Source: Mycobacterium adipatum
Lineage (GTDB): Bacteria > Actinomycetota > Actinomycetes > Mycobacteriales > Mycobacteriaceae
DNA: 64,000 bases
Direction of reading: 5' to 3'
NCBI RefSeq assembly: GCF_001644575.1
Contig: NZ_CP015596.1
Span: forward strand, 2,542,001 to 2,606,000
Shown piece after piece: positions 5,898 to 33,317 of the stretch (the first letter of the stretch is position 1; every line of letters begins with the position of its first letter). Under the pieces are notes generated by a model. The model did no database searches. It was not told the DNA's origin and was given only the letters and a program-made list of their open reading frames with translations. The position numbers and the translations under genes were made by a program.

Positions 5898-6629
5898 GTG
5901 CCGTTAGCTGTCGAGCTGGACAGGTCCAGCCCTGTTCCCCTCTACTATCAACTCGCCCAGGCGATCGAAGCCTCGATCCGCAACGGCGATCTCGCCCCCG
6001 GCGACCGGTTCGAGAACGAACTCGCACTGGCGAGCCGGCTGGCCTTGTCGCGGCCGACCACCAGGCGGGCGATCCAGGAACTCGTCGACAAGGGTCTGCT
6101 GGTGCGCAAGCGCGGCGTCGGCACCCAGGTGGTGCAGAATCCCGTGCACCGCAGGGTGGAGCTCACCAGCCTGTTCGACGATCTCGCGAAGTCCGGCCAG
6201 GATCCGACAACGCAGCTGCTCCAATACCACTCCGGTATCGCCGACGAGGAGATCGCCGCCGAGCTCAATCTGGGCAAGGATCATGAGATCGTCACCATTC
6301 AGAGACTGCGTTGCGCCAATGGGGAGCCGCTCGCGGTGATGACGAATCATCTGCCCATCGAGATCGCGCCAGATGCCGAGGAGCTCGAGGCCAGCGGTCT
6401 CTACCAGGCACTGCGCGGGCGCGGTGTGCACATCCGACTGGCCCGGCAACGCATCGGAGCCAAGCCGGCCAATCGCAACGAGGCGCGGCTTCTCCATGAG
6501 AAGGCCGGCGCGCCGCTGCTCACCATGAGCCGCACGGCGTTCGACGACTCCGGCCGCGCGGTCGAGTTCGGTAGTCACTGCTACCGCGCTTCGCGGTACT
6601 ACTTCGAGACCACGCTCGTCGACCGCTAG
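5898..6629 (+). CDS. GntR-family regulator (HutC/UTRA type), likely inositol repressor
   Basis: This protein of about 243 residues has an N-terminal winged helix: it begins PLAVELDRSSPVPLYYQLAQ, and LALSRPTTRRAIQELVDKGL is the recognition region. A UTRA effector-binding domain occupies the C-terminal two thirds. The open frame extends up to 5844, but GGAG at 5889-5892 sits 5 bases before the GTG at 5898, so I chose that start; a GTG at 5892 is also possible. The gene is divergent from iolC and the likely operator lies between them, consistent with an inducer-responsive repressor. The effector is not determinable from sequence. Confidence 0.85.
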   Translation: MPLAVELDRSSPVPLYYQLAQAIEASIRNGDLAPGDRFENELALASRLALSRPTTRRAIQELVDKGLLVRKRGVGTQVVQNPVHRRVELTSLFDDLAKSGQDPTTQLLQYHSGIADEEIAAELNLGKDHEIVTIQRLRCANGEPLAVMTNHLPIEIAPDAEELEASGLYQALRGRGVHIRLARQRIGAKPANRNEARLLHEKAGAPLLTMSRTAFDDSGRAVEFGSHCYRASRYYFETTLVDR

Positions 6630-27138: not shown

Positions 27139-28290
27139 TCAGCGCGACGGTAGGACGAAGGCCGACCGGCCCGCCACCGCGGCCAGGTGGCGCGCCAGCA
27201 CCGCCTCCGGGATCAGCGTCGTCGCCCGGCTGGCCAGCCCGCTGAGCGCAGCGGGCCGCATATTGACGATGCGCCCCACGGTGCGGGATTCGACCACCAG
27301 CCCCCGTACCCGCCGGCTCCGAAACTGCGCGAAACGCCGGAACGCCGCCGATAGGTCGGACTCGCCCACCGTCAGCGCCGCGAGGATCGCGGCGTCCTCC
27401 AGCCCCTGGCAGCCACCCTGGCCCAGGTGCGGGCGCATCGGGTGAGCGGCGTCGCCGACGATCACCGCGCGGTCGCGGGCCCAGGTTGCGGCGCGGCGGC
27501 GGTCATAGAGGTCATTGCGCAGCACCGCGGCGGGGTCGGTGCAGGCCAGCAGCGTGGGGATCGGCTCCGGCCAGTCCCCGAAGACGCGCCGCACCTGCGC
27601 GTGTTCGCCGTCCACCGCGGATTGACCCTGTGGCGCCCGCTGGGTGGCGAACCAATAGGTGTGCTCGGGCCCCATCGGCACATGCCCCACCTCAAGGCCC
27701 GGCCCCATCGTTTCCCCGGCCAGATCGGGATCCATGGAATACGAGGCGATTCCGCGCCACGCGGTGTAACCGGCGTACCGGCGGGGGAGCACGCCGTTGA
27801 GGTGGCGCGCCACCGTCGAGTCGACGCCGTCGGCGCCGACCACCGCATCGACCGCCGCGACGGTCCCGTCGGACAAGGTGACCCGGGCTCCGGTGCGCGA
27901 GACGTCCAGGGCAGTGGCCGCAAGGCCGTGCGACACCGCGCCGGGCGGCAGGGCGCCGACCAGGATCCCGGTGAGGGTGGCGCGGTGGATGATCACCAGC
28001 GGTTCGCCCAGCGCCCGCACGATCCGGTCGGGGGACGGCCGCCGCAACCAGCGGCCATCGCGCCAGCGCACCGCACCCGCGCTGACCCGGCCGCCGGCCT
28101 CCCGCACCGGATCGCCCAGGTCGAGGACATCGAGCGCGGCCAGCGCATTGGGCCAGATGCTGATGCCGGCACCGGTGGTGGCGTCGGTGCGTTGCTCGAC
28201 CACACGCACGTCGTGACCGGCCCGATGCAGGGCGACGGCGGTGGCCAGCCCGGCGATCCCCGCGCCGACCACCAGGATGTGCGCGGACAT
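27139..28290 (-). CDS. Group A FAD-dependent monooxygenase
   Basis: The product has 383 residues. ILVVGAGIAGLATAVALHRAG is the FAD Rossmann motif, GADGVDS is the DG motif and VGDAAHPMRPHLGQGG is the GD motif, in the order expected for salicylate-hydroxylase/zeaxanthin-epoxidase-type enzymes. The ATG at 28290 has TAGGGT 7 bases upstream and no Shine-Dalgarno, so it is probably leaderless. An open frame continuing to 28830 is antisense to the next gene. It is divergent from the N-demethylase operon and shares the GlnR-like box region. Substrate unknown. Confidence 0.85.
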   Translation of the reverse strand: MSAHILVVGAGIAGLATAVALHRAGHDVRVVEQRTDATTGAGISIWPNALAALDVLDLGDPVREAGGRVSAGAVRWRDGRWLRRPSPDRIVRALGEPLVIIHRATLTGILVGALPPGAVSHGLAATALDVSRTGARVTLSDGTVAAVDAVVGADGVDSTVARHLNGVLPRRYAGYTAWRGIASYSMDPDLAGETMGPGLEVGHVPMGPEHTYWFATQRAPQGQSAVDGEHAQVRRVFGDWPEPIPTLLACTDPAAVLRNDLYDRRRAATWARDRAVIVGDAAHPMRPHLGQGGCQGLEDAAILAALTVGESDLSAAFRRFAQFRSRRVRGLVVESRTVGRIVNMRPAALSGLASRATTLIPEAVLARHLAAVAGRSAFVLPSR

Positions 28291-28328
28291 GGTGCAGACC
28301 CTATCGGTGAGCGTGTCAACAAGACGAG

Positions 28329-28352
28329 ACAGCGAGGTCACATCGCCGAAAC
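28329..28352. promoter_or_regulatory. GlnR-like box upstream of the N-demethylase operon
   Basis: AC dinucleotides at 28329, 28340 and 28351 are spaced by 9 bases each, within GAGAC-N6-GTCAC-N6-GAAAC. AC-n9-AC is the core of the mycobacterial GlnR consensus. The box lies 60 bases before the dmmA-like start and about 47 before the divergent monooxygenase start. Confidence 0.6.
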
Positions 28353-28411
28353 GCACGTTTGGTTTCCTGAAGGGCAACCCTGTCAACCACTGGTGTCCAC
28401 GGAAGGGCTTC

Positions 28412-28975
28412 ATGCGACCTGACCTCGAGCTGACGAGCGTGCCCGTCTGGGCGCTGAACCCCACCCGGCCCGGCGCCGACCTGTCCGGGCGGGCCTGGAC
28501 GATCATCGCGTTCGGGCCGCACGGTGCCGATATCGCGCAGACGTGGATCGACCAGATCGCTTCCGTGCACGGTGAATCCGCGGTGCGGCTGCATCGGTGT
28601 GACGACGGCACCCAGTGTGACGACGGCACCGCCTCGGCGATCGAGGCGCTGACCGCCGACCTGGTCGACGCCCGCGTCGGCTGGCGATTGATGATGGCCG
28701 GTCCCGCCGATGCCTGCCTGCGGCTGCGCGGAGCGGCCGGCGCACTCGGGGTCGCCGATGACGAGATGACGGTGGCGTCCACCGATGACGACGCGCGCAC
28801 GGTGCACTGTGTGCACTGCGGGGCGGTCACCCGGGCGCAGGTGCAACTCGATCAGGTGCTGCCGTGCTCGTCCTGCGCGCGCAAACTGCTGGTCTACCAT
28901 CACGTCTCGCGACGAGCCGGTACGTACCTGGGCTTCATGGTCGACGCCGAGCAGCCGGCCGAGGTGCCGTCGTGA
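28412..28975 (+). CDS. DmmA-like subunit of an N-demethylase/dimethylamine monooxygenase
   Basis: The product has 187 residues. The C-terminal part HCVHCGAVTRAQVQLDQVLP followed by CSSCARKLLVYHHVSRR is a four-Cys zinc-ribbon-like module typical of DmmA-like proteins; the N-terminal part looks like an alpha/beta domain. GGAAGG precedes the ATG at 28412. It is the first gene of a three-gene operon with a PDR-type reductase and a DUF3445 protein, the set known for oxidative N-demethylases. It may be an accessory or structural subunit rather than the catalytic one. Confidence 0.78.
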   Translation: MRPDLELTSVPVWALNPTRPGADLSGRAWTIIAFGPHGADIAQTWIDQIASVHGESAVRLHRCDDGTQCDDGTASAIEALTADLVDARVGWRLMMAGPADACLRLRGAAGALGVADDEMTVASTDDDARTVHCVHCGAVTRAQVQLDQVLPCSSCARKLLVYHHVSRRAGTYLGFMVDAEQPAEVPS

Positions 28976-29907
28976 ACACCCTCAAACTGGTCGTCACCGC
29001 GATCGACGACACCGTCGGCGGCATTCGGACCCTCACCCTGGCCGACCCCGACGGGAACCCCTTACCGTCGTTCACCCCCGGCAGTCATATCGTCGTGGAG
29101 TGCGGCGGCAAGGCCAACGCCTACTCGCTGACCGGCGACGGTAATTCCCCGACCGCCTATGTGATCTCGGTGCTGCGCTGCGCGGACGGGTCGGGCGGGT
29201 CGCGGTGGATCCACGACGAGCTGGCACTCGGGGACACCGTCGCCGCCGGGCCGGCGCGCAGTGCCTTCGCGCCGGTGTTGCGGGCCCGTCGGCACCTGCT
29301 GGTCGCCGCGGGAATCGGCATCACCCCGATGGTGTCGCACCTGCGTAGCGCGCAGACATGGGGGCGCGACGTGCACCTGCTCTATATCCACCGGCAAGGA
29401 CGGGGAGCCTATCTCGATACCGTCGCCGAATTGGGTCAGCACGTCTCGATCCACACCGAGCGGGCGGCCTTCTCGGCCGAACTTCTTGCCGCCCTTGCCG
29501 ATCAGCCGTTCGGCACTCACCTGTACGTGTGTGGGCCCGCCTCGTTCATCGACGACGTCACCGGCGCGGCAACCCGACTCGGATGGCCGGACAGTCGAAT
29601 CCACCTGGAACACTTCGGATCCGAGGCACTCGACCCCGGGGAACCTTTCACCACCCGGGTGGCCTCCACCGGCGAGGAATTCGTCGTCGACGCCGGTGTC
29701 TCGCTGCTGGAGGAGTTGGAGCGCCGCGGATTCGAGGTGCCCAGTCTGTGCCGCCGCGGGGTGTGCGGTGAATGCCGGCTTGCGGTGTCGGCGGGCACCA
29801 TCATCCATCGTGACCTGTACCTGACCGACGCCGACAAGGAAGCGGGCGATGCCGTGATGTCCTGCGTTTCGCGCGGCGGAGCCGACACCCTGGAGGTAGC
29901 ACTGTGA
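28972..29907 (+). CDS. PDR/VanB-family oxidoreductase, reductase subunit of the N-demethylase
   Basis: The product has 311 residues. A flavin/ferredoxin-reductase-like domain contains VVECGGKANAYSLTGDG and a pyridine-nucleotide site HLLVAAGIGITPMVSHL. The C-terminal plant-type [2Fe-2S] domain has CRRGVCGEC and a final Cys in MSCVSRGG. It passes electrons from NAD(P)H via flavin to the iron-sulfur cluster and then to the oxygenase. The GTG start overlaps the upstream stop codon (GTGA), and the downstream gene overlaps it in the same way. Confidence 0.88.
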   Translation: MNTLKLVVTAIDDTVGGIRTLTLADPDGNPLPSFTPGSHIVVECGGKANAYSLTGDGNSPTAYVISVLRCADGSGGSRWIHDELALGDTVAAGPARSAFAPVLRARRHLLVAAGIGITPMVSHLRSAQTWGRDVHLLYIHRQGRGAYLDTVAELGQHVSIHTERAAFSAELLAALADQPFGTHLYVCGPASFIDDVTGAATRLGWPDSRIHLEHFGSEALDPGEPFTTRVASTGEEFVVDAGVSLLEELERRGFEVPSLCRRGVCGECRLAVSAGTIIHRDLYLTDADKEAGDAVMSCVSRGGADTLEVAL

Positions 29908-30878
29908 TCTCGGCACCCGATCTCGTCCACACCTTTCCCTTTCCGTTTGCCGCCGACACCTACCGGTACAGCACCAATGTCGAGCCCGCCGGCTCGGCGG
30001 TGCCGACACCGGTCGGTCGGTGGGGCGAGCGCGTGGTCGATATCGACAGTGAGTACGAGCACGAATTGGCGGAGCGGGCAGCCATTCTCGCCGCCGATCC
30101 CACCCGCAGCGCGGTGTTGCCGCATATGCGCCCGGCGTGCTGGGACACCATGCTCACCTTGATGCGTGAGCTTGCCCGCGCCTATCCCGAGAGCATGGCG
30201 CTGCGGCGGCACGGTGCCGGTTGGCGCTGGCGCAACGACAGACTGGGCATCGAACAGGATTTCGTCCTCGGTGACGAGACCACCCTGCCGGCCGAACCGC
30301 TGCGCTACATCGCCGGCCAGGTGCAGGAGGATATCGTCCTGCTCGACCAGCGTGACGGCGATCTGTTCGGCGACGCGGGTGTGGTCACCTTCGCCGCCGA
30401 CTGGTCGTTCGGGTTCGACGTCGGCATGACATTCCTGGAGATCCACGGGCCGGTGCCCCGGTTGCGGGCCACCGGTGTGATCACGCGTGCCAGGGACTTC
30501 CTCATGCGCCTGCAACCCGGCGAGACCTACCGGCGCACCAACTGGACGCTGACCATCGGTCGCCGACTGGACGTCTCGACGGAGCTCTACCACGAGTGGG
30601 GGCCGGACCGCACGATGATCCTGGGCGTTTCCGACGAGGAGTTCGGGCGGTTGGTGCACCTGCGGGTCGAGGTGCAGCATCTGATCCGGCTACCGGAGTC
30701 GGGGTCGATCTGCTTTCTCATCCGCACCTACATGCTGCCGCTGGCCGATATCGCGACCGTGGACGACTGGCGGGTGCGGGCGGCGGCCGTGCTGGCCGAA
30801 CTTCCCGACGACATCGCCGACTACAAGGGGATCATCGGGTACCGTGACCGCGCCGTGCGGTGGCTGCGCGGAGTCTGA
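29904..30878 (+). CDS. Heme-dependent oxidative N-demethylase alpha subunit-like protein (DUF3445)
   Basis: The product has 324 residues. Segments such as FPFAADTYRYSTNVEP, ARAYPESMALRRHGAGWRWR, ADWSFGFDVGMTFLEIHGPV and LPESGSICFLIRTYMLPL match the DUF3445/HODM alpha family. These are catalytic subunits of dimethylamine- or N-methyl-amino-compound demethylases. Starting with GTGA overlap to the reductase, it completes a coupled three-gene operon. Products would be formaldehyde and a less methylated amine; release of ammonium fits with the ammonium transporter that follows on the other strand. Confidence 0.82.
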   Translation: MISAPDLVHTFPFPFAADTYRYSTNVEPAGSAVPTPVGRWGERVVDIDSEYEHELAERAAILAADPTRSAVLPHMRPACWDTMLTLMRELARAYPESMALRRHGAGWRWRNDRLGIEQDFVLGDETTLPAEPLRYIAGQVQEDIVLLDQRDGDLFGDAGVVTFAADWSFGFDVGMTFLEIHGPVPRLRATGVITRARDFLMRLQPGETYRRTNWTLTIGRRLDVSTELYHEWGPDRTMILGVSDEEFGRLVHLRVEVQHLIRLPESGSICFLIRTYMLPLADIATVDDWRVRAAAVLAELPDDIADYKGIIGYRDRAVRWLRGV

Positions 30879-30891
30879 CCGAAACGCCGAA

Positions 30892-30921
30892 ATCGCCCGG
30901 AACCGTAAGGTTCCGGGCGAT
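30892..30921. terminator. Bidirectional terminator between N-demethylase and amt operons
   Basis: Thirteen-base arms (30892-30904 and 30909-30921; core CGCCCGGAACC) close a GTAA tetraloop, lying between convergent genes 14 bases after the DUF3445 stop codon. Confidence 0.82.
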
Positions 30922-30939
30922 CTCCGGGTGACCGATCAA

Positions 30940-31158
30940 TCAGTAGGGTGTCGGCTCTCCTTCGGCCGCCGGCCCCGGTTCCACCGGCTTGTGCTCGATG
31001 ATCGCGGTGTATGCCTTGTTCTCGTGCTGGACCATCCGGACGAAGAAACCGACGAACAGCAGCAACGCGACGATGAACGAGATCCACACGCCGAGTGAGT
31101 ATCCGCCGAAGGTGAACACCACGGCGGCATCGTCATAGCTGTCGATGGGACTGAACAT
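30940..31158 (-). CDS. Small single-span membrane protein encoded with the ammonium transporter
   Basis: The product has 72 residues: MFSPIDSYDDAAVVF, then one hydrophobic span with GVWISFIVALLLFVGFFVRM, then a short acidic/Pro tail ending in PTPY. The ATG immediately follows the amt stop codon with no gap, so the two genes are cotranscribed and probably translationally coupled. It has no recognised family here. A role as a small regulatory or structural partner of the transporter is a reasonable inference but is not shown. Confidence 0.75.
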   Translation of the reverse strand: MFSPIDSYDDAAVVFTFGGYSLGVWISFIVALLLFVGFFVRMVQHENKAYTAIIEHKPVEPGPAAEGEPTPY

Positions 31159-32490
31159 TTACTTGACCTCCTCGGTGACAACCAGGACGGAACCGTTGGT
31201 CCGCATGACGGTGACCGGGATGCCCTCCGGGTACGGCGTTGCGGGCACCTCGCTGAGATCCAGTCCCTGCTCCTCGACCTCCGGTGGAATCCGCAGCAGG
31301 CCAACCTTCTTCAGGCCCAGCGAGACCAGGTAGGCGGGAATGAAGCCGAGCGCGGCGAAGACCACGGCGCCGATCACTTGACCCCAGAAGGACACCGACG
31401 GGTTGCCATCGGTGTTCGGGTAGCCGGACAGCCAGATACCGGCCATCAGCACCGAGTACAGGCCGATCCCGCCGTGCACCGACACCGCGCCGACCACGTC
31501 GTCGATCTTGAACTTCTCCAACAGTTTTCCGATGTACGGGGCCAGAGCGCCGGCGCCCAGGGCGATGATGAAGCCCAGCGCCGGGTGGTAGAGGTCCATT
31601 CCCGATGCCACGCCGATCACGCCGCACAGACCGCCGGAGATGGTCCAGAACGGCTCGCCCTTCGAGGTCAGGTAGGCGCCCAGGATGCCACCGGCCAGGC
31701 CCATCAGGGTGTTGAAGGCGAACGCGCTCAACGTCGTCGGGCTGGCGTAGATGGTGGCGAAGCCGTCACCGGCGTAGATGACACAGCCCATCAGGAAGCC
31801 GAAGAAGCCGGTGAAGATCAGCATCAGGCCCACCATGGTCAACGGCAGGTTGTGCGGCCGGATCGTGACGGGCTTGCCGTCGGGCAGGAACCGCCCGATG
31901 CGCGGGCCGAGGTTGATCAGGATGCCCAGCGTGGCGAAACCGGCGATCATATGCACGCAACCGGCGGCGCCGACATCGTGGAATCCGAGCTTGGTCAGCA
32001 TCCAACCGGCGCCGTGCCACCCCCAGGCCGCGCCGATGATCCAGGTGACCGATCCCACCAGCACGGTCAGGACCAGGAAGCCGCTGGTGCGGATGCGCTC
32101 CAGCACGGCACCGGACATGATCGAACCGGTGGTGGCCGCGAACAGCGCGAACGCCCCCCAGAAGATGCCGCTCGCCGGGTCCTGGACGTTCGGGCCCATG
32201 TTGTCGCTCCACGGGAGAGCGGCCCTTGCGGCATCGGTCATTTCGATGAAGCCGCTGGGCATTGCGTTGTACAGGAACCAGCCGACGAAGAAGAACGATG
32301 CCACGATGGTGGCGAAGGCCAGCAGGTTCTTCATCGCGGTGGCAAGCACATTCTTCGACCTCGATGCGCCGACCTCGTAGGCGAGGAAGCCGGCGTGGAT
32401 GAGCATCATCAGCGCGATGGACATCCAGTAGAAGAACTCGTTGTTGACGGCCGCCATCGTTGAGAGGGCGTCCTCCACTTCAGGTGTCAA
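31159..32490 (-). CDS. amt: Ammonium transporter (Amt/MEP/Rh family)
   Basis: The product has 443 residues with about 11 membrane spans. Family signatures include YEVGASRSKNVLATAMKN, FHDVGAAGCVHMIAG (first pore His and conserved Asp) and DDVVGAVSVHGGIGLY (second pore His). The C-terminal tail after the last span is long (about 50 residues, EEQGLDLSEVPATPYPEG). The start is TTG 32490 with GGAGG 5 bases upstream. It is followed by the 72-residue membrane protein gene. A GlnR-like box at 32560-32586 suggests induction by nitrogen limitation. Methylammonium transport is also possible given the adjacent N-demethylase. Confidence 0.92.
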   Translation of the reverse strand: MTPEVEDALSTMAAVNNEFFYWMSIALMMLIHAGFLAYEVGASRSKNVLATAMKNLLAFATIVASFFFVGWFLYNAMPSGFIEMTDAARAALPWSDNMGPNVQDPASGIFWGAFALFAATTGSIMSGAVLERIRTSGFLVLTVLVGSVTWIIGAAWGWHGAGWMLTKLGFHDVGAAGCVHMIAGFATLGILINLGPRIGRFLPDGKPVTIRPHNLPLTMVGLMLIFTGFFGFLMGCVIYAGDGFATIYASPTTLSAFAFNTLMGLAGGILGAYLTSKGEPFWTISGGLCGVIGVASGMDLYHPALGFIIALGAGALAPYIGKLLEKFKIDDVVGAVSVHGGIGLYSVLMAGIWLSGYPNTDGNPSVSFWGQVIGAVVFAALGFIPAYLVSLGLKKVGLLRIPPEVEEQGLDLSEVPATPYPEGIPVTVMRTNGSVLVVTEEVK

Positions 32491-32559
32491 AGGAACCTCC
32501 GCCGATCATTTCTGGGGGATGGGGTGGGGAGGCACTGCGTTTAATCACAGTGGCCATGA

Positions 32560-32586
32560 GGTACTGACGGTGTACCGGATTGAAAC
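32560..32586. promoter_or_regulatory. GlnR-like box upstream of amt
   Basis: GGTAC-N6-TGTAC-N6-GAAAC places AC dinucleotides at 32563, 32574 and 32585, exactly 11 bases apart. This is the same triple AC-n9-AC layout as before the N-demethylase operon. It lies 70-96 bases before the amt start codon. Confidence 0.62.
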
Positions 32587-32696
32587 TAACCGCGGGAATG
32601 TGTCCCAGCGGTCAAGGCGAGTTAATTCCGCGTGAAGAGGTTGTGCGCGCCCGAAGTTGGGATCGGTAGCACCGGCCACCCACCACGCTGTGCGCC

Positions 32697-33317
32697 ATGA
32701 CGACATTCACCCGCCTCGGCTTCGGCCTGGCCGCCACCGCAGTTTCGATCTCGATGCTCTCCGGATGCTCCAAGATCGATGACATCAAGGCCATCACCGA
32801 TGCCGCGACCACCGCCGTCGAACAGCTCAGCGACACCGCCGGCGGACTCACCGAGATCGCGGCCGGCGACCTGGTCACCGTGGAAGGAATCGACCGGGCG
32901 CTCGGGGCGATCTCGCAGCGGGTGGGCGCGAACCCCATGCAGGTGGTCGAGCTCGTGATCACCGAGCAGGTGGTCACCGTGCAGGCGGTCAACCCGGCCG
33001 CGCCGACGGAACTCAACCAGTGGACGTACACCGCCGGTCAGGTCGGCGATCTGCGCCCGGTCGACTACGACGACGACACCGAGGCGTTGCAGCAGAATCT
33101 GTTCCCCGTCACCGAGGTGCCGGCGACCGCGATCATGACCGCGGTCGACAACGCCATCGGGGCCAGCGGTATCGCCGACGGTGAGGTGCAGACCGTGATC
33201 GTCAAACGCAATCTGCCCTTCAGCGACGATCTGCAGATCCTCATCAACGTGCAGGGCGAGCGCAGCAACAAGCAGGTGCGTGCCGACGCGACCGGACAGG
33301 TCACCGGCGTTGTGTGA
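32697..33317 (+). CDS. Putative lipoprotein of unknown function
   Basis: The product has 206 residues. The signal peptide ends in lipobox MLSGC with lipidated Cys24. The remainder is acidic and hydrophilic, with LTEIAAGDLVTVEGIDRALG and a C-terminal VNVQGERSNKQVRADATGQV. It resembles mycobacterial exported lipoproteins without an assigned role. It is divergent from amt across about 206 bases, and its stop overlaps the long-frame start of the S9 peptidase gene. Confidence 0.78.
   Translation: MTTFTRLGFGLAATAVSISMLSGCSKIDDIKAITDAATTAVEQLSDTAGGLTEIAAGDLVTVEGIDRALGAISQRVGANPMQVVELVITEQVVTVQAVNPAAPTELNQWTYTAGQVGDLRPVDYDDDTEALQQNLFPVTEVPATAIMTAVDNAIGASGIADGEVQTVIVKRNLPFSDDLQILINVQGERSNKQVRADATGQVTGVV

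Follow-up and report, generated by a model that had tools for sequence, protein, structure and literature searches.

What connects a putative oxidative N-demethylase operon with an ammonium-transporter operon that converges on it in a 64,000-nucleotide stretch of the 6.05-Mb genome of Mycobacterium adipatum (contig NZ_CP015596.1, positions 2,542,001 to 2,606,000 of the forward strand; hereafter the window)? A preliminary description had noticed three AC dinucleotides at 11-base steps in the promoters of both operons, dmmABC on the forward strand and amtA with a gene for a 72-aa protein on the reverse strand, and proposed that the nitrogen regulator GlnR joins them into a unit that draws nitrogen from methylated amines. 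We consider such a module probable, with GlnR-type arrays activating dmm and amtA for the N-demethylation of a secondary amine, uptake, and assimilation of the primary amine. When nitrogen runs short, GlnR would occupy two groups of sites before amtA as well as an array of four units that lies some 60 bp ahead of dmmA, and its presence at both promoters would activate both operons. The substrate of DmmABC would be a secondary N-methylamine, probably dimethylamine, which it would demethylate oxidatively to a primary amine and formaldehyde, AmtA would take up (or recover) ammonium or methylated ammonium, and the primary amine would be assimilated, maybe by an amt1-gmaS-mgsABC-like-oxidase cluster elsewhere in the genome.

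The pattern AC-n9-AC-n6-GAAAC has exactly two matches in the window, at 28329-28352 (+) and 32563-32586 (+), which confirms the 11-base spacing described for the two promoters. The expectation is 0.15, and a count of two was reached by 2 of 100 dinucleotide shuffles; across the whole genome, 28 matches were found versus 6 for the reversed control pattern. We also scored every window position on both strands against the published GlnR consensus, taking four units at an 11-bp pitch. The dmm promoter array ranked first (19.2), followed by an array in the amt promoter on the strand of amtA itself (17.9). With three units, the dmm site was again first, and the amt triple of the preliminary description, on the opposite strand, was among the top four (14.2). 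In an 18.5-kb stretch used as a positive control (L161), the top score (17.9) fell about 80 bp before a glutamine-synthetase-like gene and the fourth (16.6) about 50 bp before another. Both the dmm and the amt sites have the makeup of GlnR boxes, that is, 5-nt NNNAC units at n6 spacing within a promoter.

To follow these sites through evolution, 80 of the 119 matching dmm loci were compared (L002-L081), comprising close relatives (L002-L023) and distant sets (L024-L081); the M. smegmatis locus was not among these 80. The triple upstream of dmmA was present in 21 of the 22 close relatives; the exception, L018, does not enter the column counts. In these 21 relatives, the boxes of the dmm array were conserved at 98% and unit positions 4 and 5 at 100%, including all four A columns at position 4, as opposed to 59% in the spacers and 64% in the rest. 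The amt promoter was readable in 18 of the 22 and showed a weaker contrast (boxes 88%, spacers 71%, rest 61%), with the C columns of its array at 1.0 and the A columns at unit position 4 at 0.89-1.0. A permissive pattern that tolerated a changed A in two units recovered the own-strand amt array in 18/18 relatives, and a distal pair, TTCAC-n6-TT(A/T)AC, was likewise found in all 18. Among the close promoters, the window included, the best site had a control p value of at most 0.05 in 24/28 cases for dmm and 14/19 for amt.

The preliminary description had therefore pointed to the right place in the amt promoter, but its box was incomplete and on the wrong strand: the opposite-strand triple was kept in only 2/18 relatives, and we rejected it as a conserved site. 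The palindromic GTAC-n7-GTAC pair inside it is part of the conserved own-strand array. The distal pair also persists where the two operons are apart, as TTCAC-n6-TTAAC was kept in 6/6 genomes with AmtA not found right beside dmmC (in two of these, AmtA is on other contigs and dmm is near a contig end). The proximal array was found in its strict form in 1/6 of these genomes; judged by eye, it was relaxed in two more and missing from the other three. Among 10 scored Nocardioides dmm promoters, two (L043 and L065) have an array of the type ...TTCAC-n6-GAAAC upstream of dmmA, scoring 18.0.

The array is also tied to dmm across the genus, for which we sampled 396 genomes and took DmmC relatives at E<=1e-3, some of them weak. 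DmmC relatives were found in 92 of the 396, and the strict dmm array in 37, once in each, with no match for the reversed control. All 37 are among the 92 DmmC-positive genomes (Fisher's p 4e-27, a statistic that ignores kinship, the sampled genomes being related and not independent). In 36 of these genomes, dmmC follows the array on the same strand at a distance of 1516-1613 bp. In the remaining genome, G159, the array stands beside an FAD monooxygenase gene (L173 6217), dmm lies close to a contig end elsewhere (L177), and AmtA was not found; this layout reflects either a rearrangement or an assembly break. Of the DmmC-positive genomes without the strict array, G083 and G055 were inspected for a relaxed version, which is present in each.

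The regulator itself is encoded in this genome by a gene whose product is 63% identical to Streptomyces coelicolor GlnR; among its solved relatives, 4o1h, 'Transcription regulator GlnR', came fifth, behind four entries without that name. In M. smegmatis, chromatin immunoprecipitation sequencing (ChIP-seq) placed GlnR peak 37 at 4722511-4722551 (MSMEG_4635, amtA, 102-fold) and peak 38 at 4726751-4726791 (the MSMEG_4639 operon, 'putative uncharacterised protein', 57.3-fold) (Jenkins et al. 2013, PMC3662644). The distance between the peaks is 4240 bp; between the array centers it is 4224 bp here and 4153-4347 bp in the 18 relatives. A second 2013 study reported glnR-dependent rises of 22.9-, 31.8-, 18.4-, and 30.1-fold for msmeg_4635-4638 and a positive gel shift for amtA (PMC4222082), and strong glnR-dependent expression at this locus appears in Table 1 of each paper, from two microarrays. 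In these tables, msmeg_4638 is annotated as 'vanillate O-demethylase oxidoreductase'. Together with the motif layout, the footprint, and the GlnR gene, these data strongly support GlnR control of both promoters, and by analogy with M. smegmatis GlnR would bind both arrays in this species.

Several points weigh against this reading. For a 64-kb sequence, neither four-unit score is extreme: 100 simulated sequences contained a mean of 0.42 positions at >=18 and 2.24 at >=17, with a maximum of 19.7. The strong evidence for the arrays is their conservation. The control p values per single locus were modest, the best site differed from the proximal array in three of the close amt promoters, and only 6/41 distant dmm loci reached p<=0.05. 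The strict array is absent from 55 of the 92 DmmC-positive genus genomes, so we rejected a general control of Dmm operons by GlnR. As for M. smegmatis, msmeg_4639 is not in Table 1 of PMC4222082, the gel shift upstream of msmeg_4638 was negative in the same paper, and MSMEG_4635-4639 is apparently the matching locus as judged from gene numbers, annotation, and spacing. Against the last step, the same paper reports no growth of M. smegmatis on 10 mM methylamine. The negative gel shift would be explained if msmeg_4638 is dmmB, because the dmm array in the window lies 620-657 bp before dmmB, beyond the reach of the published fragments of <=500 bp. Fragments upstream of an apparent second operon gene are thus a candidate resolution of the disagreement between ChIP-seq (positive for MSMEG_4639) and gel shift (negative for msmeg_4638).

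These scores, the lack of conservation of the opposite-strand amt triple, and the shorter ACN6GAAAC core, which is not above chance in the window (4 found versus 4.3 expected), would all fit chance matches without function. We hold this to be very improbable: the 11-bp periodic conservation at both promoters and the genus-wide tie between array and dmm speak against it, and for the dmm array and the own-strand amt sites, chance is contradicted by conservation. Another OmpR-type regulator that reads GlnR boxes, such as MtrA, PhoP, or RegX3, might instead be the main protein on these arrays. A search of this genome with GlnR gave 18 weaker matches besides its GlnR gene, and MtrA has been reported on GlnR boxes in Streptomyces, according to a title in the reference list of PMC10704036. 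However, at the M. smegmatis locus that apparently corresponds, GlnR was found by ChIP-seq and expression depended on glnR, which makes this highly improbable as well.

The families of the three dmm products were found together in one operon, as in the DmmABC or heme-dependent oxidative N-demethylase (HODM) systems. In profile searches, DmmA matched NF041259 (111.3 bits, cut-off 60), the dmmB product matched PF22290 and Fer2, and DmmC matched PF11927 (218.1 bits, cut-off 25). Family searches of the adjoining genes found no dmmD (GcvT-type). In a system described for Ruegeria pomeroyi and Methylocella, dmmABC alone converted dimethylamine to methylamine in Escherichia coli (PMC5520151), and by family resemblance DmmABC here would convert dimethylamine to methylamine and formaldehyde.

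A possible route for the methylamine lies in one row of genes in the same genome (L158 3021-10562), encoding amt1, a GmaS-type synthetase, three Mgs-like proteins, and a sarcosine-oxidase-like FAD enzyme that scores below its cut-offs. The GmaS-type synthetase reached 616.9 bits versus a type III glutamine synthetase cut-off of 469.6, and its best solved relatives, 7cql and 9qur, are named 'Glutamate--methylamine ligase'; the genes next to it encode GATase, GXGXG, and Glu_synthase domains, with no match to an Mgs-specific model. We regard this row as a likely methylamine-assimilation cluster. Its apparent counterparts in M. smegmatis, msmeg_6259-6264, show 5- to 16-fold glnR-dependent expression (7- to 16-fold for 6260-6263) (PMC4222082), and two Mycobacterium isolates with gmaS/mgsABC-like genes have been reported to grow on methylated amines (PMC5023230). 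Array-like matches stand before amt1 (16.8) and before a second row of the same genome (16.3; L159 10732-10769), where the match runs into the first start codon; both are chance-level scores. That second row encodes an ABC transporter, an amino-acid permease, and a copper amine oxidase, and it resembles MSMEG_2522-2526 of M. smegmatis. A nitrogen gain from methylated amines is plausible because of these gene families.

AmtA belongs to PF00909 (209.5 bits, cut-off 23.2) and keeps the Asp and both His residues that have a functional role in Amt transporters. It does not fall into the canonical amt subfamily, as judged from the NCBIfam cut-off (TIGR00836, 216.6 versus 343.3), which amt1 of the same genome passes (412.3), and from the FNG-type motif. 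In place of the latter, FGFLMGC was found in 26/26 AmtA-type sequences, versus an FNG type in 32/32 other readable Amts; the FLMGC stretch presumably matches the recruitment site of AmtB around S219. This divergent subtype comprises the window's gene at 31159-32490 and the genes of 25 loci among L002-L073. In the genus sample (>=85% identical, E<=1e-100), AmtA was found in 38 of the 396 genomes, all of them Dmm positive and equal to the 37 strict-array genomes plus the two with relaxed arrays minus G159; one of them, G038, still has AmtA 2.4 Mb away from dmm. AmtA-type genes (66-69%) also occur in 7/58 of the distant loci L024-L081 (Nocardioides, Aeromicrobium, and Millisia), on the same strand as dmm. 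The 72-aa protein follows in 6 of these 7 non-mycobacterial loci too, msmeg_4636 is the gene with the 31.8-fold glnR-dependent rise, and this small protein, with probably a single transmembrane (TM) helix, is possibly an Amt partner.

The restriction of AmtA to Dmm-positive genus genomes, its position beside dmm in Nocardioides, Aeromicrobium, and Millisia, and its FLMGC in place of an FNG-type motif are the grounds for reading AmtA and its small partner as a dedicated channel for di-/methylammonium, inherited with DmmABC as a GlnR-driven scavenging unit. We regard this as doubtful. In a class sample of 296 genomes, AmtA was found in three (G000, G122, and G132), all genus members already counted, and at E<=1e-100 in none of the nine DmmC-positive genomes outside the genus, so this sample offers no independent support; 54 of the 92 DmmC-positive genus genomes are without AmtA. 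Both results lowered our estimate for the channel somewhat.

The same absences favor an alternative in which GlnR acts on both operons, the enzyme serves another N-methyl substrate (an N-methyl amino acid, N-methylethanolamine, etc.) or the detoxification of secondary amines, and AmtA merely shares the regulator as a normal scavenger of ammonium. The missing growth of M. smegmatis on methylamine points the same way, as do its GlnR-dependent growth on ethanolamine (PMC4222082) and the many unrelated scavenging genes placed under GlnR (PMC3662644). Against it stand the presence of Dmm in all 38 AmtA genomes and the AmtA-type genes in dmm loci of other genera, and we consider it clearly less probable than the GlnR-driven use of methylated-amine nitrogen. 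The latter would give a likely function to one strongly GlnR-induced but unnamed mycobacterial operon, suggests that soil mycobacteria mine N-methylated amines at nitrogen run-out, and points to an Amt subtype that may differ in its substrate.

The layout of the locus is given in Table 1. The hairpin between the convergent operons is a possible two-way terminator; it was absent from the output of a T-tail terminator scan. A promoter scan of 28280-32700 found no sigma-70-type promoters. The divergent FAD-dependent monooxygenase gene shares the intergenic region with dmm, and with its start codon about 25 bp from the dmm array, GlnR could affect this gene too.

TABLE 1 Features of the dmm-amtA locus (positions in the window)
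Feature	Position	Strand	Comment
FAD-dependent monooxygenase, divergent from dmm, common intergenic region	27139..28290	-	start ~25 bp from dmm array
dmm GlnR-type array, four units, 11-bp pitch, GTCAA-n6-GAGAC-n6-GTCAC-n6-GAAAC	28315..28352	+	contains the box of the preliminary description, 28329-28352
dmmA-like gene	28412..28975	+	PF22289, NF041259
dmmB-like reductase	28972..29907	+	PF22290 + 2Fe-2S Fer2
dmmC/HODM alpha subunit-like	29904..30878	+	PF11927; PDB 5LTE relative
13-bp hairpin separating the convergent operons	30892..30921	.	from sequence; fold of 30875-30945 z -5.15
gene for the 72-aa protein, downstream of amtA	30940..31158	-	single TM helix probable, judged by eye
amtA, divergent Amt-family transporter, TTG start	31159..32490	-	PF00909
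amtA proximal GlnR-type array, own strand, GGTAC-n6-AGTAC-n6-GCCAC-n6-TAAAC	32539..32576	-	
amt box of the preliminary description, strand opposite to amtA	32563..32586	+	full triple not conserved
amtA distal double box TTCAC-n6-TTAAC-n5-TTGAC-n6-GACAC	32600..32636	-	first pair counted in relatives, second pair by eye

Compared with known systems, the dmm array closely matches the a-b-a-b layout of GlnR sites in S. coelicolor, gTnAc-n6-GaAAc-n6-GtnAC-n6-GAAAc (PMC10704036), except that its first unit is GTCAA and does not end in AC. DmmC aligns with HODM (PDB 5LTE) over residues 4-322 of 324 (E 6e-99). The operon shares the gene order dmmA-dmmB-dmmC with the Ruegeria pomeroyi/Methylocella system, where amtB also appears in the legend of Figure 1 (PMC5520151), whereas control by GlnR is new to that system. 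AmtA resembles Amt ammonium transporters in family and key residues but differs in falling short of their NCBIfam cut-off. The closest likeness is to the M. smegmatis locus of peaks 37 and 38, with five consecutive gene numbers, fitting annotations, similar spacing, GlnR binding, and glnR-dependent expression. It belongs to another species, however, and its operon is not recognized as Dmm/HODM in PMC3662644, the main text of which lacks the words 'demethylase', 'methylamine', and 'monooxygenase'; dimethylamine is not mentioned in PMC4222082. In our literature search, MSMEG_4636-4639 came up only in these two articles, and GlnR and dimethylamine were not linked in any paper found. The preliminary description knew of no published account of this combination, which holds for the operon, never named there as Dmm/HODM, but not for the regulation, which was tabulated twice in 2013. 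The regulation is thus largely known in a sister species, and what this locus adds is an operon named as Dmm/HODM and a divergent AmtA that occurs, within the genus sample, only in Dmm-positive genomes.

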